Position numbers and translations under genes: made by a program
In this document: positions 48,881 to 56,413 of the stretch, in pieces
How positions within the stretch are numbered: position 1 is the first letter of the stretch
Layout of the letters: every line of letters starts with the position of its first letter
Notes under the pieces: generated by a model
What the model was told of the DNA's origin: nothing
Database searches by the model: none
Seen by the model: only the letters and a program-made list of their open reading frames with translations
NCBI GenBank assembly: GCA_900167895.1
Contig: FUZR01000001.1
Coordinates: 725,144-789,143 of the forward strand
DNA length: 64,000 nucleotides
Direction of reading: 5' to 3'
Origin: Bacteroidales bacterium WCE2004
Lineage (GTDB): Bacteria > Bacteroidota > Bacteroidia > Bacteroidales > UBA932

Positions 48881-48888
48881 CAAAATTA
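48881..48888 (-). promoter_or_regulatory. -7 promoter box (TAATTTTG) of the cdsZ-dnaB-rnf unit
   Basis: Perfect TAnnTTTG match on the minus strand, 41 nt before the cdsZ ATG; it overlaps the last codon and stop of the upstream MerR gene by three bases. Confidence 0.55.
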
Positions 48889-49206
48889 CGAAATATTTTT
48901 CTTAATCTCCATAAGTTGGGCCCGGATTTCCTTCAGCGATTCGATCGCCTTGACGCTCCGGTCCACGGGGCGGCGGTCGGCGGCCAGCTGCAGGGCGGCG
49001 CCTTCCAGAGTGAGACCGCGGTCCTTGACCAGGTGGTGGATCTGCTTGAAAGTCTCCACGTCGGCCGCGGTGAACTGACGGTTGCCCTTCGCGTTGCGCT
49101 GGGGCTTGATGAATTTCGGGAAGGAGTTGGACCAGAATCGAACCAGGGACACGGATTCATCCAGGATCCCGGCCACTTCACCGATCGAATAGAATAGTTT
49201 CTCCAT
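48886..49206 (-). CDS. MerR family transcriptional regulator
   Basis: A 106-residue DNA-binding protein with an N-terminal MerR winged helix (FYSIGEVAGILDESVSLVRFW, then RQFTAADVETFKQIHHL) and a short dimerising coiled coil, but no effector-binding domain. Such minimal MerR proteins are conserved in Bacteroidota with unknown targets. It is 15 nt downstream of an M23 peptidase gene in the same direction. Confidence 0.88.
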   Translation of the reverse strand: MEKLFYSIGEVAGILDESVSLVRFWSNSFPKFIKPQRNAKGNRQFTAADVETFKQIHHLVKDRGLTLEGAALQLAADRRPVDRSVKAIESLKEIRAQLMEIKKNIS

Positions 49207-49221
49207 ATATCGTTAATCCAT

Positions 49222-50181
49222 TTAATCCATTGATTGCAGGGTGTTCGCCGACATGTACAGCATGTTCACGTATTCCGAAGGGCTGACGGAGGCGAAGAAA
49301 AATCCGACAGGATCCCGCCCGGCGCCGTCCTTGCGCACTTCGTAGTGCAGGTGCGGGGCGAAGGCCTGGCCGGACATGCCGACCGCGCCGATCCGGGCGC
49401 CGGCACGCACCCGCTGGCCGGCCCGGACGTTCATGCTCTCGAGGTGGGCGTAGACCGTCTCGTAGCCGCCGGCGTGGGAAATCCGCACTGTGTTGCCGGT
49501 CGACTTGCTGGACGAGGCCGAGACCACGGTGCCGTCGGCGGCGGCCAGCACGGGCGTGCCGCGCGCCACGATCAGGTCGAGGCCCTCGTGATAGACATAG
49601 GCCTTGTAGAAAGGATTCATCTTGCGGCCGGTGGACGCGCCGACCTGCGGATAGGTGATGTCCTTGATCGGGAGGATCATCGGCGGGAGGACCGTCGCGG
49701 AGTCGGACAGGGCCTGGAAAATGCGCCCGAAGGCCGCGTCGACCAGCCGGCTGCGCTGCAGCAGGCTGTCCGCCTTGTTGCGGGCGTAGCCGAGCAGCTC
49801 CTGCTCGGGGATCGCGTCGACATCCACGAAGGAACCGTCCTCCTCCATCGGGTCCAGCATCGGAGCACCGGGAGAATGGAAGACCAGGCCGTAGATCTCG
49901 TTGTCCTTGTACTGGAGGTTGGCGATCGCGTCGCCCAGCAGCTGCTCGCGCTCTTCCAGGTCGGGATAGAGGCGCTCGTACATCCGGATCTCCTGGCGCA
50001 GGCGGCGCTCGGTGTCCGTACGGAACACCAGCGAGAAAGCCAGATAGACCAGCACGGCAAGCGTGAAGGTCAGGAGCATATACGCCAGCACCAGCAGCAG
50101 GGTCTTCCCGACCTTGCTCGGCACCTTGCCGAAACGGAAATTCTCGGCATCGAATATGACCGGGATGATTCTTCTAGCCAT
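49222..50181 (-). CDS. M23 family peptidase (second of a tandem pair)
   Basis: Zinc metallopeptidase acting on peptidoglycan peptides from the inner membrane. The 319-residue protein has one N-terminal helix (about 27-50), a coiled-coil region and a C-terminal LytM domain with YHEGLD (His/Asp metal ligands) and HLHYEV. All metal ligands are present, so it is probably active. It overlaps the first M23 gene by 8 nt. Confidence 0.9.
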   Translation of the reverse strand: MARRIIPVIFDAENFRFGKVPSKVGKTLLLVLAYMLLTFTLAVLVYLAFSLVFRTDTERRLRQEIRMYERLYPDLEEREQLLGDAIANLQYKDNEIYGLVFHSPGAPMLDPMEEDGSFVDVDAIPEQELLGYARNKADSLLQRSRLVDAAFGRIFQALSDSATVLPPMILPIKDITYPQVGASTGRKMNPFYKAYVYHEGLDLIVARGTPVLAAADGTVVSASSSKSTGNTVRISHAGGYETVYAHLESMNVRAGQRVRAGARIGAVGMSGQAFAPHLHYEVRKDGAGRDPVGFFFASVSPSEYVNMLYMSANTLQSMD

Positions 50182-51196
50182 TGCCTTTCTTGCTGCGCCG
50201 GAGCAGCTCCGTCGTACTGGTGCGCTTGCCGACCGGCGATTCCTGCACGCGGGTGCCGATCATCGAGCGGTATTCGTCAAGCGACATGTTGAAATCCATA
50301 TAATTCATCGGGTTCACCCGGTCGCCGCGGTAGACTACCTCGTAGTGCAGGTGGGGGCCGGTGGACTTGCCCGTCGAGCCGATGTTGCCGATCTGCTCGC
50401 CGCGCCTGACCGGCATTCCCGCCACGACCGTGATCACGCTGAGGTGCGCGTACCGGGTCTGGTAGCCGTAGCCGTGGTCGATGATGACCTGGTTGCCGTA
50501 GCCGTTGGTCTTGAACTCCGCCATGGTCACGATGCCGTCGCCGGTGGCGTAGACGGGCGTGCCCGTGGGGCCGGCCATGTCCTGGCCGCCGTGGCGCTCG
50601 CCGCCGCCGTAGACCGGGTCCGTGCGGTAGCCGAAGCCGCTCGACAGGTGGACCCTGTTGCGGTCGGGCAGCACGGGCGGCACGCTGGGCACGCAGGCAA
50701 GCATGTCGCCCGCGGTGCGGGCCAGCATGCCGACTTCGTCCAGCGCCTTGCCCTGGATGTAGGTGCGCTTGGTCAGGCCGTCCAGCCGCCGCACGGTCCA
50801 GCCCAGGGAGGAATTGGTCCCGAGCCGGTCCACCTCGGCGTAGCGGTTGACGCCGCCCAGGCCGGAATTCTTGACGGCGTCGGGGATCTCTCCCAGGCCG
50901 TAGATCGAGCGGTACACCTGGTCGTCACGCTGCTCGATGGCGGTCAGCGTGCGGTCGTAGAGGTCCAGGCGGTTGGAGAGCACCTCCATCTTGGCCTCCC
51001 ACGCGGCCGCACGGCGCTTGAGCATCGCGGTCTTGGGCAGGTCCCAATGGAACACGGAGGTGTAGAGCCAGAAGTACAGCAATACGAAACCCGCGGCGGC
51101 CACGATGGCCACCGCCAGACGGACGTGCTTGAGATACCTGGGTTCTTCCTTCTCCTCGTACAGCAGCGTTTCAGGGTTCAGTACATACTTCGGCAT
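50174..51196 (-). CDS. M23 family peptidase (first of a tandem pair)
   Basis: A 340-residue membrane-anchored LytM-domain protein, paralogous to the next gene. After a charged start and one helix (about 25-45) comes a coiled coil and then the catalytic domain with RHGGQDMAG (His and Asp ligands) and PHLHYEV. The N-terminus MPKYVLNPETLLYE lies 7 nt after a TATCTTTG box. Confidence 0.9.
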   Translation of the reverse strand: MPKYVLNPETLLYEEKEEPRYLKHVRLAVAIVAAAGFVLLYFWLYTSVFHWDLPKTAMLKRRAAAWEAKMEVLSNRLDLYDRTLTAIEQRDDQVYRSIYGLGEIPDAVKNSGLGGVNRYAEVDRLGTNSSLGWTVRRLDGLTKRTYIQGKALDEVGMLARTAGDMLACVPSVPPVLPDRNRVHLSSGFGYRTDPVYGGGERHGGQDMAGPTGTPVYATGDGIVTMAEFKTNGYGNQVIIDHGYGYQTRYAHLSVITVVAGMPVRRGEQIGNIGSTGKSTGPHLHYEVVYRGDRVNPMNYMDFNMSLDEYRSMIGTRVQESPVGKRTSTTELLRRSKKGNG

Positions 51197-51269: not shown

Positions 51270-51303
51270 ATCATCGAAAGTAAGCGAAATGGGAATCCGG
51301 CGC

Positions 51304-53715
51304 CTAAACGGCCTTCCAGGACTGCGGGTCGCGGAATCCCTTGAGGAATTCGGCGACGGCCATCTTCTTCTTGCCGGCCAGCTGGACCTCCGTCAGGGCC
51401 AGGGCGCCGTCGGCGGTGGCGACGGCGAAATAGGTCTTGCCGTCGGAGAGGACGGTGCCGGGCTCCGCGTGCAGGTCCGGGCGCTTCTCGGTGCGGTAGA
51501 TCTTGAGGACAGATCCTTCGCTGCGCTCAGGCTGGCAGGGGACGAGCTCGGTGAAGGCCGCCGGATACGGGGAGAGACCGCGGACGAGGTTGTATACCGC
51601 GTCGGTGGAGCGGGTCCAGTCGATGTGGCAGAGCTCCCGGGTGAGCTTCGGCGCCGGCTTGAGCTCCTCGGAGCCCTGGATGAAGGAGCGCTGGACGCGC
51701 AGCTCGACGTTGTGCTGGATCAGGCCCTCGACGGTCTGCAGGACCAGGCCGGAGCCGATCTCCATCAGCTCGTCGTGCAGCTCGCCGGCTGTCTCGTCCG
51801 GCCGGATGCGGCACTCCTCGCGGAGGATGATGCCGCCGGTGTCGATGTCCTTGTCGATCATGAACGTGGTCACGCCCGACATCTTCTCGCCGTTGATGAC
51901 GGCCCAGTTGATCGGGGCGGCGCCGCGGTACTGCGGGAGCAGCGCCGCGTGGAGGTTGAAGGTGCCGAGTTTCGGCATCGACCAGACCTCCTCCGGCAGC
52001 ATCCGGAAAGCCACGACCACGAACAGGTCGGCCTTCCAGGCGCGCAGCGCCTCGAGGAATTCCGGGTCCTTGAGCTTGACCGGCTGGAGCACGGGGATGC
52101 CGTGCGCCACGGCGTATTGCTTGACGGCGCTCTCGTTCACCTTGAGGCCGCGGCCGGCGGGCTTGTCGGCGACGGTCACCACGCCGACAATCTTGTAGCC
52201 GGCCTGGACGAGGGCGTCGAGCGGTTTGACGGCAAATTCGGGCGTGCCCATATATACAATGCGCGTAGGGCGGAACACGCGGGAGACGCGGCTCACGAGC
52301 CTGCGCCACCAGGTCTTCAGTTGGTCCATGTTGAAAAGTTCTGCATCCCGAAGCGCCCGCCAGGTGAAGTAGGCGCCGATCGGGGCGATGATGGCGCAGG
52401 CTATGAAGACGCCGACAGGCGTCTCGACGGCGCCGTCACGCGCCAGCTTGCTGCCGGAAATGTTGATGACATAATAGAGGACGAAGAAGAGCACGGACAC
52501 GATCAGTCCCACGCCGAGGCCGCCCTTCTTGCTGCGCACCAGCGCGCCCATCGGCGCCCCGATGAAGAAAAGCAGGAAGCAGGCGAGCCCGGAGGCGAAT
52601 TTCTCCAGGTAGGCCAGGTCGGTCTGCCGGAGGTTGTAGCTCTGGTCGTAGGAGTCGAAGCGGAAATTGGTGATCTCCGCGCTGAGCTTCGTGACGTTGT
52701 CGGCGGCGCGGATCCGGGCCTGCGCGTCCTCGTCCGGGTTTTTCCACTGCAGGAAACCCGGCGCACGGAAATCCGACCGTTCCTTGTTGCGGAACGCCGT
52801 ATCCAGCTGGCGGGCCATCACCAGGGAGCCATGGTGCTGGACGATCCGGTAATGCTGGCGGTGGAGCGAATCCAGATACGTGCGCAGCGAATCGCTCTGG
52901 TGGAGGAGTTCGCGCGGCTGCTTGCTCCTGACCGCGTTGTCGAAGCGCGCCGAGTCGGATTTCTCGAAGTTGTAGTTCTTCAGCGGGATGAGCAGCTCCT
53001 GCCGGGCGAAGTTGATGTGCTGCAGGTTCAGCGTCGTGTCGTTGTAGCGCAGGGTGTTGTCCTCGCGGTAGCTGGACCCGTGGTAGAGGGTGAAGGTCAG
53101 GTATTCCTTGCTCCTGGCCATCTTCAGCATGGCGGAGTCGGCCAGCGTCACGGAGATGTTGCCCTTGTGGGCGGAGTGGTCGTAGACCTGCACGTCGTAG
53201 AGCATGCGGGACGTCTTGTCCTGGTCGCCGACCCGGAGGATGTAGCCGTCGATGCCGTCGTAGAAGGTCCCCGGCGGGATCTTGATCTCGTCCTTGGTGC
53301 GGGCGATGTCGTCGCGCAGGGTATAGATCTGGTTGAACGCGTGCGGCACGACCCGCGAGCAGACCACATAGGTGCTGCCTCCGATCAGCAGGGCGAGCAC
53401 GCCCAGCGGCAGGAGGACGCGGCCGAGCGAGATGCCCGCGGCGCGGATGGCCATCAGCTCCCCGCGCTCGCTGAACTGACCGATGGTCATCGTGGAGGCG
53501 AGCAGGGTCGCGAGCGGCAGCGCGAGCGGCAGGGCCAGGCTGCACACGCCCCAGAACAGGAATTCCAGGATCGTGCGGATGCCCAGGCCCTTGCCGACCA
53601 GCTCATCGATATAGAGCCAGAGGGTCTGCATCATCAGGATGAAGACTACGACGAGGAAGATCGCAACGAACGGTCCGATGAACGACTTCAATATGAAGCG
53701 GTCGAGCTTCTTCAT
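51304..53715 (-). CDS. LptF/LptG (YjgP/YjgQ) permease fused to methionyl-tRNA formyltransferase
   Basis: One 803-codon frame encodes two unrelated proteins. Residues 1 to about 470 are an LptF/LptG-type permease of lipopolysaccharide transport: three N-terminal helices, a large periplasmic beta-jellyroll, then three helices ending in PVGVFIACAIIAPIGAYFTW. From about 480 to 803 is a complete methionyl-tRNA formyltransferase: RIVYMGTPEFAV, the catalytic NLHAALLPQYRGAAPIN with Asn and His, DIDTGG with Asp, and a C-terminal domain. The junction reads MDQLKTWWRRLVSRV and is cytoplasmic by topology, so a functional fusion is possible. An ATG at residue 463 and a GTG at 480 could start free Fmt. A short REP-like insertion is read in frame at 51511-51540. 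The gene follows alaS by 18 nt. Confidence 0.9.
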   Translation of the reverse strand: MKKLDRFILKSFIGPFVAIFLVVVFILMMQTLWLYIDELVGKGLGIRTILEFLFWGVCSLALPLALPLATLLASTMTIGQFSERGELMAIRAAGISLGRVLLPLGVLALLIGGSTYVVCSRVVPHAFNQIYTLRDDIARTKDEIKIPPGTFYDGIDGYILRVGDQDKTSRMLYDVQVYDHSAHKGNISVTLADSAMLKMARSKEYLTFTLYHGSSYREDNTLRYNDTTLNLQHINFARQELLIPLKNYNFEKSDSARFDNAVRSKQPRELLHQSDSLRTYLDSLHRQHYRIVQHHGSLVMARQLDTAFRNKERSDFRAPGFLQWKNPDEDAQARIRAADNVTKLSAEITNFRFDSYDQSYNLRQTDLAYLEKFASGLACFLLFFIGAPMGALVRSKKGGLGVGLIVSVLFFVLYYVINISGSKLARDGAVETPVGVFIACAIIAPIGAYFTWRALRDAELFNMDQLKTWWRRLVSRVSRVFRPTRIVYMGTPEFAVKPLDALVQAGYKIVGVVTVADKPAGRGLKVNESAVKQYAVAHGIPVLQPVKLKDPEFLEALRAWKADLFVVVAFRMLPEEVWSMPKLGTFNLHAALLPQYRGAAPINWAVINGEKMSGVTTFMIDKDIDTGGIILREECRIRPDETAGELHDELMEIGSGLVLQTVEGLIQHNVELRVQRSFIQGSEELKPAPKLTRELCHIDWTRSTDAVYNLVRGLSPYPAAFTELVPCQPERSEGSVLKIYRTEKRPDLHAEPGTVLSDGKTYFAVATADGALALTEVQLAGKKKMAVAEFLKGFRDPQSWKAV
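51511..51540. repeat. REP-like short palindromic repeat inside fmt
   Basis: The plus-strand run AGATCCTTCGCTGCGCTCAG followed by GCTGGCAGGG closely resembles the dispersed intergenic repeat seen in many bacteria as an AGATCCTTCGCT-type element ending in a GATGACA-like tail. On the coding strand it gives the peptide CQPERSEGSV inside the C-terminal domain of Fmt. I see no second copy in the window, so this rests on resemblance to known repeats. Confidence 0.5.
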
Positions 53716-53733
53716 CCTGAAGGTGGAGCTTGT

Positions 53734-56364
53734 TTAACGCGTGGCGGTTTCGACGAGGGCGTCGAGGGCCTGCTTGAGGCCGTCGACGTTCTTGCCGCCG
53801 GCAGTCGCGAGGCCGGGCTGGCCACCGCCGCCGCCCTGGATGAACCTGGCGGCGTCGCGGATGTCCTTGCCGGCGTTGCGGCCCGCGGCCACGAGGTCGT
53901 CGGAATACATCAGGACCAGCTGCGGCTTGCCCTCGGAGGCGTACGCGCCCACGAGAACGGTATTCTTCAGCTCCTTCTGGAGCGTCAGCGCGGCGTTGCG
54001 CACCAGCGCGGAATCGCACTCCTGGCCGGCCTCGGCGGCGACGATCAGCTGGACGCCGCCCTTCGGCTGCGCCTTGGCGGCGAGCTGACGGGCGAAGTCG
54101 GCCGCCTTCTGCTTCGCGAATTCTTCCGCCTGCTTCTTGAAGGTGGCGTTGTCCTCGAGCATCTTCTGGATGGCGCCCGCGAGGTCGGGGGCGTTGTTGA
54201 AGAAGCCGCGGGCGGTCTTGATCAGGCTCTGCATGCCGCAGACGAGCTCCTCGGCCTGCGCGCCGGTCACGGCCTCGATGCGGCGGATGCCGGCCGCGAT
54301 GGCGGACTCGCCGGTGATCTTGAAGAAGCCGATGTTGCCGGTGGCGGAGGTGTGGCAGCCGCCGCAGAGCTCCACGCTCGGGCCGAAGCGGACCACGCGG
54401 ACGCGGTCGCCGTATTTCTCGCCGAAGAGCGCCATGGCGCCCAACGCGCGGGCCTCGTCCATCGTGGCGTCACGCTTCTCCGCCAGCGGGAAATTGCTGC
54501 GGATCAGCTCGTTGACGCGGCTCTCCACCTGGGCGATCTGCTCGTCGGAGAGCTTCTCGAAATGGGAGAAGTCGAAGCGGAAACCCTGGTCGCCCACGAA
54601 GGAACCCTTCTGCTCCACGTGGGTGCCGAGAATCTCGCGCAGGGCGCGGTGCAGCAGGTGCGTGCAGCTGTGGTTGTTGGCGATACGCTGACGGCGGTCG
54701 GCCTCAACGCTGAGCTTGAAGGCGCCGCTGCAGTCCTGCGGCAGGCGCTCCGCGATATGGATGGTGAGGTTGTTTTCCTTGACGGTGTTGAGGATGCGGA
54801 TCTGCTCGCCGTCGGCGGCGGTGATCACGCCCGTGTCGCCGATCTCGCCGCCCATCTCGCCGTAGAACGGGGTGCGGTCGAAGACCAGCTGGAGCATCTC
54901 CTTGTTCTTCTGGACGACGGTGCGCTGCTTGAGCAGCAGGGCGCCCTCGACCTCGGTGGTGTCGAAGCCCACGAACTCGACGTCCTCGCCCTCGTGGTAG
55001 ACCGTCCAGTCGCCGAAGGTGTTGGCGGTGGCGTTGCGGGCGCGGTCCTTCTGCTGCTGCAGCTCGGCCTGGAAGCCCGCCTGGTCCACAGTGAAGCCGT
55101 TCTCGGCGGCGATCAGCTCCGTCAGGTCGATCGGGAAGCCGTAGGTGTCGTAGAGCTTGAAGGCGTCGGCGCCGGCGATGACCTTGCTGTCCTTGCTGCG
55201 CTCCATGCACTCGTCCATCAGGCGGATGCCGCGGTCGAGGGTGCGCAGGAAGGCCATCTCCTCCTCGCGGATGACGCTCTCGATGAATTTCTGCTGCCGG
55301 GCGATCTCCGGATAGGCCTCGCCCATGTCGTCCACGAGCTGCTGGACGAGCTGGCAGAGGAAGGGCTCGCTGAGCCCGAGGAAGGTGTAGCCGTAGCGGA
55401 CCGCGCGGCGCAGGATGCGGCGGATCACGTAGCCGGCCTTGACGTTGGACGGCAGCTGGCCGTCGGCGATGCTGAAGCTGATCGCGCGGATGTGGTCCGC
55501 GATCACGCGCATCGCCACGTCGGTCTTGTCGGACTCGCCGTATTTGTGGCCGGAGAGCGCGCCGATGCGGGCGAGCATGCCGGTGAAGACGTCGGAGTCG
55601 TAGTTGCTGTTCTTGCCCTGGAGCACGGCGCAGAGGCGCTCGAAGCCCATGCCGGTGTCGATGTTGCGGGCGGGCAGGGACTCGAGGTGGCCGTCGGCCA
55701 TGCGCTGGTACTGCATGAACACGAGGTTCCAGATTTCGATCACGTGCGGGTCGGACTTGTTGACCAGGTCGCGGCCGGCGATGCCGGAAGCGGCCTTCTC
55801 CTCCGCCGTGCGGATGTCGATGTGGATCTCGGAGCAGGGGCCGCAGGGGCCGGTCTCGCCCATCTCCCAGAAGTTGTCGTGCTTGTTGCCCAGGAGGATG
55901 TGGTCCTCCGGAAGATATTTGCGCCAGGCCTGCTGCGCCTCGGTGTCGAGCGTGGTGCCGTCTTCGGCGGCGCCCTCGAACACGGTGGCGTAGAGGAGGT
56001 TCTTGTCGATCTTGTAGACCTCCGTCAGCAGCTCCCAGGCCCAGTCGATGGCCTCGGACTTGAAGTAGTCGCCGAAGCTCCAGTTGCCGAGCATCTCGAA
56101 CATCGTGTGGTGGTAGGTGTCGTGGCCGACTTCCTCCAGGTCGTTGTGCTTGCCGCTCACGCGGAGGCACTTCTGGGAGTCGGCGGCCCGCAGGTACGGG
56201 GCCTTGGCATTGCCCAGGAAGATGTCCTTGAACTGGTTCATGCCCGCATTGGTGAACATCAGGGTCGGGTCGTTCTTGACCACCATCGGTGCGGACGGCA
56301 CGACGGTATGGCCCTTGGATGCAAAGAATTCGAGGAATTTCTGTCTGATTTCCTTGGAGGTCAT
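53734..56364 (-). CDS. alaS: Alanine-tRNA ligase
   Basis: Charges tRNA-Ala. The 876-residue protein has the class II catalytic domain ([26 protein letters not shown]), the tRNA-recognition helical region, the editing domain with NHSCTHLLH and [10 protein letters not shown] as zinc ligands, and a C-terminal DHHA1 oligomerisation domain. The ATG at 56362-56364 is the conserved start; the frame is open 14 codons further up, through the promoter region, and that is unlikely to be translated. Confidence 0.96.
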
Positions 56365-56388
56365 ATGTTTTTCGCTTTTAATATTTTC

Positions 56389-56413
56389 CAAAACTAATCG
56401 AACCACAAAAGTA
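56389..56413 (-). promoter_or_regulatory. Two candidate -7 boxes (TAGTTTTG, TACTTTTG) of alaS
   Basis: Minus-strand TAnnTTTG matches at 56389-56396 and 56406-56413 lie 24 and 41 nt before the alaS ATG. The nearer fits the spacing of most other promoters here. The rest of the 152-bp divergent gap 56365-56516 is AT-rich without another feature. Confidence 0.5.

Follow-up and report, generated by a model that had tools for sequence, protein, structure and literature searches.

An uninterrupted reading frame joins an LptF/LptG-type permease to methionyl-tRNA formyltransferase in a genus and several related genera of Bacteroidales

Bacteroidales bacterium WCE2004 encodes methionyl-tRNA formyltransferase (Fmt) in one reading frame with an LptF/LptG-type permease, and the same fusion is real and has been kept across many species of its genus and family. 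The gene lies in a stretch of 64,000 nucleotides of contig FUZR01000001.1 that was analyzed in full (the window), and it probably specifies one bifunctional protein, in which the only Fmt of the cell would sit on the cytosolic tail of a lipopolysaccharide (LPS) exporter and which would have formed repeatedly at a compacted gene pair. Both halves belong to known families. A preliminary description of this DNA knew of no such LptF-Fmt fusion, and searches of an open-access library likewise gave none, neither as the only Fmt that a lineage has nor with repeated origins.

The gene occupies the minus strand of the window (Table 1), where an ATG opens a frame of 803 codons that is free of internal stops. 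As the preliminary description had it, this frame holds a complete permease and a complete Fmt, a reading on which the ORF, Pfam, and NCBIfam agree. The Pfam LptF_LptG domain scores 217.3 bits against a gathering threshold of 27.9 and is matched over profile positions 1–353 of 353, Formyl_trans_N and Formyl_trans_C score 119.5 and 82.1 bits, respectively, and the NCBIfam fmt model scores 233.8 bits, above its cut-off of 201.5. The permease half falls below the curated cut-offs of the equivalog models for both LptF (TIGR04407, 135.1 versus 230) and LptG (TIGR04408, 93.8 versus 240), so that its identity as F or G is not settled by them. Known permeases of the LptB2FG complex (PF03739) lack the 320-residue enzyme tail found here. 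Compared with known Fmt (TIGR00460), the fused copy has both Formyl_trans domains but no conserved start of its own, being preceded by a membrane protein. N587, H589, and D625, which we take to be the catalytic N, H, and D, are invariant in all 38 aligned fused proteins, as is G521-R522-G523, presumably the GRG of the basic tRNA-binding loop; this alignment was preferred to a motif count over 138 fused loci, in which the D-motif pattern (120 loci) and the basic-loop pattern (128 loci) were too strict.

Table 1. Positions in the window of the fused gene, its parts, its candidate internal starts, and the gene upstream
Feature	Position	Strand	Basis or remark
Fused lptF-fmt gene, 803 codons and stop	51304..53715	-	ORF, Pfam, NCBIfam
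LptF/LptG permease domain, residues 6–453	52357..53700	-	PF03739
Basic linker, residues 461–484 (24 residues)	52264..52335	-	Charge count; helix 463–481 in model
Fmt domain, residues 485–797	51325..52263	-	TIGR00460; PF00551 at 485–658, PF02911 at 690–795
Candidate internal start ATG, residue 463	52327..52329	-	Shared by 18 of 20 close rows, counting the own copy
Candidate internal start GTG, residue 480	52276..52278	-	In own copy only among 20 close rows
alaS, directly upstream of the fused gene, 18-nt gap	53734..56406	-	ORF

Permeases of the LptF/LptG kind have six membrane segments and a cytosolic C-terminus. Six hydrophobic segments are seen here, three before and three after a soluble part, followed by the basic tail, and a structure model of the protein matches Lpt permease and Fmt structures (with ArnA and sugar N-formyltransferases also among the matches), all of which is compatible with the earlier suggestion that the fusion is topologically possible. 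The linker is 17–34 residues long in fused cases and carries a positive charge in all 137 (of 138) cases in which it was measured; where the domains of unfused loci lie less than 150 bp apart (44 loci), the tail of LptF is similar, with a positive charge in 43. By the positive-inside rule, the positive charge of the linker would place Fmt on the cytosolic side of the membrane. The helix in the linker is modeled at low confidence (block means of 55 and 59 over residues 461–480), and at a pTM of 0.44 the model does not predict the relative position of the two halves.

The genome itself (2.32 Mb in five contigs, 95% complete) was found to encode no other Fmt above the cut-off, two partial matches scoring 62 and 60 bits, so that the fused gene must supply Fmt if the cell formylates its initiator tRNA, unless a further gene lies in the missing 5%. 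Two peptide deformylases are also encoded, and ribBA lies elsewhere in the genome, away from the fused gene. The preliminary description had raised the matter of separate copies of either partner: there is a second LptF/LptG permease, one being the fused protein and one separate, and no second Fmt above the cut-off. A second, separate permease was also found in nine of ten other fused genomes searched, the tenth (G119, 80% complete) showing one, and in six of the ten (G064, G106, G076, G111, G101, and G065) the second gene lies approximately 2–4 kb from the fused one. A 2007 survey (PMC1971073) records fmt in all sequenced bacteria except two. Three genomes of the order and phylum samples (G274, G233, and G426; 95–99% complete) have no Fmt above the cut-off, only short formyltransferase-like matches, and it is possible that they have lost initiator formylation; the genome of G274 is only 1.2 Mb.

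A single frame of 791–862 aa spans both halves in 33 of the 37 genomes of the same genus (own included), counting that of G001, which is without its first 15 residues. In G025 the frame is broken within LptF but runs on through the junction, G010 and G004 hold Fmt-end fragments close to a contig start, and G014 (70% complete) gives a single weak match (2.9e-4). No stop occurs at the junction in the 34 same-genus genomes where it is visible. Within the family sample, 138 of 149 genomes were matched, and 48 of these are fused, with a frame of at least 796 aa and one match each at E ≤ 1e-30; the frames of G127 and G162 are shortened (684 and 591 aa), and those of the remaining 88 do not exceed 396 aa. 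A set of 79 named loci contributed 71 fused ones, some cut by contig ends, along with one pair of truly separate genes (L105), three contig-edge pieces (L106, L109, and L110), and three Saprospiraceae loci with the permease only; these counts and the genome counts are not independent, as the same organisms may occur in both. The one further named locus, L101, is an otherwise fused gene with a frameshift within its fmt half. Outside the family, no frame of fusion length was seen: none of the 140 matched genomes of the order sample has a frame above 392 aa, and none of the 146 matched genomes of the phylum sample reaches 700 aa, the longer frames there being those of G397 (523 aa), G420 (457 aa), and G412 and G349 (660 and 672 aa, with one stop counted in each).

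The best 120 of 4586 database matches, the first of which is the protein itself, all have the three Pfam domains at lengths of 767–839 aa. Only eight of these 120 are named, all eight as Fmt alone, which is a gap in labeling. Identity among fused proteins goes down to 43%, and the 58-residue junction is identical in L054 and the same-genus L011. The preliminary description had worried that the frame could come from an assembly error, that reads might reveal an in-frame stop near the junction, or that all close relatives might have two separate genes; the genus gave neither the stop nor the separate genes, and wherever the junction can be seen within the genus the two halves are joined, as they are in several genera related to it. 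Chance and an artefact of assembly or sequencing are excluded, for the same join recurs in assemblies of many species and in database proteins.

Outside the genus, 127 members of the family were matched; the neighborhood of fmt was compared in 105 of these and in one genome each of 15 other families. The family loci comprise 37 fused and 68 separate ones, and the two domains of the latter lie within 250 bp of each other at 45 loci, 420–510 bp apart at ten (all of g45), and 1.7 kb apart at two; at the other 11, no lptF was found upstream of fmt in the 1.4–7.1 kb fetched. In g45, LptF (e.g., that of L148) has an extra C-terminal stretch of approximately 135 residues ahead of fmt, in place of a fusion. 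Among the other families, lptF stands 3.7–3.8 kb upstream of fmt in four and touches it, unfused, in one (f15, G050), while ten of the 15 have no lptF in the 2.4–7.1 kb fetched, so that the ancestral order rests on four families. In some of the other families, the order is lptF, two glycosyltransferase genes, ribBA, and fmt. For example, Pfam identifies all three intervening genes of L223 (a group-1 glycosyltransferase, a family-2 glycosyltransferase, and ribBA), whereas two of the three were tested in L221, and the assignments in L222 and L224 come from visual inspection of the open frames. An initial supposition that sua5 and a chloride channel gene would lie between lptF and fmt was wrong. 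In g31 and g32, ribBA alone intervenes, and in the remaining unfused genera lptF and fmt mostly touch or overlap, by 4 nt in L118, L183, L187, and L192 and by 1 nt in L150 and L217 (if the start codon closest by is used). These unfused relatives resemble the overlapping gene pairs that are described in PMC10666635 as coupling translation, the difference being that the lptF-fmt pair has gone on to full fusion. The contact between the two genes in G050, which belongs to another family of the order, is a second, independent compaction. At this locus (L220), the TAG of lptF is followed, 24 nt on, by the ATG of fmt in the same frame; an 821-residue open frame in G050 had been considered as a fusion and was rejected on account of this stop, a separate measurement of the frame giving 319.

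On a tree of 111 rows, 49 of them fused, the state must have changed no fewer than four times, and placing all 49 in one clade was rejected (p = 8.9e-42). With g47 left out, one clade for the 19 fused of 37 rows was also rejected (p = 4.2e-6), and a single origin for all fusions was thus discarded with and without that genus. In the 37-row test, a grouping of g1/g41 with g30/g26 was rejected (p = 3.1e-4) and one of g1/g41 with g39/g40/g27/g29 was not (p = 0.60), both part-groups having been named after the tree was seen, which makes their p values looser than that of the group of all fused rows; both trees were of the quick kind, without bootstrap. As a common origin of g1/g41 and g39/g40/g27/g29 was not rejected, we infer a minimum of three independent changes of state rather than of four. 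The fused g47 sits with the unfused g47 at full support in the 111-row tree; this genus has one species of each kind, and a short alignment of the two shows, besides other differences, gaps of 4 nt at the stop codon of lptF and of 15 nt ahead of it, presumably from a change toward fusion. Since the outgroups and several earlier-branching genera are unfused, fusion is favored over fission as the direction of change, although change counts cannot prove it.

The following route would account for these patterns. Residues 1 to approximately 460 would form an LptF-type permease half of the LptB2FG exporter of LPS, with a short basic tail past the last membrane helix running straight into a full Fmt, which, tethered to the membrane in the cytosol, would formylate initiator Met-tRNA there. 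The fusion presumably goes back to the loss, in this family, of the genes that had separated lptF from fmt, which would have left a pair that touched or overlapped and was probably translationally coupled; small indels or stop losses may then have fused the two independently in several lineages. A single polypeptide in the cell, activity of both halves, their topology, and the coupling of the ancestral pair are what this sequence comparison suggests, and the cell probably tolerates the tether without requiring it.

It is conceivable that the frame is fused and that free Fmt is also, or mainly, made, through initiation at ATG-463 or a GTG or through cleavage of the linker, though we consider this rather unlikely. 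Both internal starts named in the preliminary description, ATG-463 and GTG-480, are present as stated, and the former recurs in most close rows; moreover, a Met stands at −11 or −9 in part of the genus, so that internal initiation is possible in places, and the confidence of the model in the linker is low. Start codons at the junction occur, however, at chance frequency. Among 132 fused genes with a readable anchor (six of 138 were dropped), 57 lack any ATG, GTG, or TTG in the 12 codons at −14 to −3 relative to the Met of MGTP, where codon use predicts 59, and 34 have an ATG there, where 41 are expected; with the named loci left out, the counts are 30 and 19 of 66, respectively. Eight of 20 close rows (own included) have no start codon from −16 to −3, and none of the best 120 of 4586 database proteins has a Met at −14 to −3, GTG and TTG being invisible in proteins. 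No synonymous constraint was seen at the junction either, the four-fold-site difference over 19 close rows (own included) being 0.34–0.40 there, 0.36 overall, and 0.22 in the first 20 codons (window mean 0.365, SD 0.084), in a test that is weak because some inner windows have values nearly as small as that of the true start (0.25 at 601–620 and 0.26 at 765–784). The release of free Fmt through an internal start is thus weakened and, as far as these codons go, appears unsupported. Far less likely still is a C-terminal half that acts on LPS as a sugar or lipid A formyltransferase. ArnA is a formyltransferase fused to a dehydrogenase, with a role connected with LPS, and the protein described here resembles it in having a formyltransferase domain within an LPS-connected fusion; the fold is common to both, as the structure matches indicate. 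ArnA, however, acts on another substrate and has its formyltransferase at the N-terminus, and the sequence here scores as Fmt: the fmt equivalog cut-off is exceeded, while the ArnA model (NF005998) gives 145.1 against a cut-off of 777, the best solved relatives of the C-terminal half are Fmt at 216 bits versus ArnA at 112, and no other Fmt above the cut-off exists in the genome. An ArnA-like function was accordingly rejected on the profile scores.

A different question is whether the tether was selected, because formylation at the membrane, or an amount of Fmt tied to that of the LPS exporter, was beneficial, and whether the fusion recurred for this reason. There has been more than one independent change of state, and the fusion is kept over deep divergence. 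Moreover, alaS, which precedes the fused gene in many relatives as well, and lptF are mostly equally tight and are in one frame at none of the 174 loci where alaS was seen (named loci may repeat others; alaS is 2 kb off in g47 and g49 and was unseen in g31, g32, g38, and g45). Together with the recurrence of the fusion, the lack of any alaS-lptF fusion is a hint that proximity is not the whole reason for the joining of lptF and fmt. The control is a weak one, however, as LptF may be harmed by an attachment at its opposite end; 55 of the 68 fetched unfused family loci outside the genus have their domains within 600 bp and stay unfused, and there is no known functional link between LPS export and Fmt. 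Selected tethering is an unlikely explanation, and a tolerated fusion is held to be the more likely one. Were the convergent welding of Fmt to the exporter adaptive after all, which we doubt, it would fix the amount of Fmt to that of the exporter and hold formylation at the inner membrane; an entire lineage of gut bacteria would then couple its protein synthesis to the growth of the envelope, with initiation perhaps held at the membrane as well.

An enzyme of translation that nearly all bacteria have thus occurs, in a genus of uncultured bacteria common in the gut and rumen and in several genera related to it, solely as the C-terminal part of a membrane transporter. The family presents the stages side by side, i.e., separate, compacted, touching, and fused genes, with the last stage reached more than once. 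This natural series bears on when the fusion of unrelated neighbors is tolerated and when it is favored, and on whether Fmt must be free in the cytosol.

Finally, other features of the window surround the gene. The plus-strand translation of the same interval is an antisense frame. An antisense open frame of 1702 residues (window 51289–56397, plus strand) runs opposite alaS and the fused gene, and we regard it as a side effect of how codons are used in G+C-rich DNA. On the minus strand, the fused gene is followed by two overlapping M23 peptidase genes and a further gene that we take to be MerR-like (window 48886–51196).
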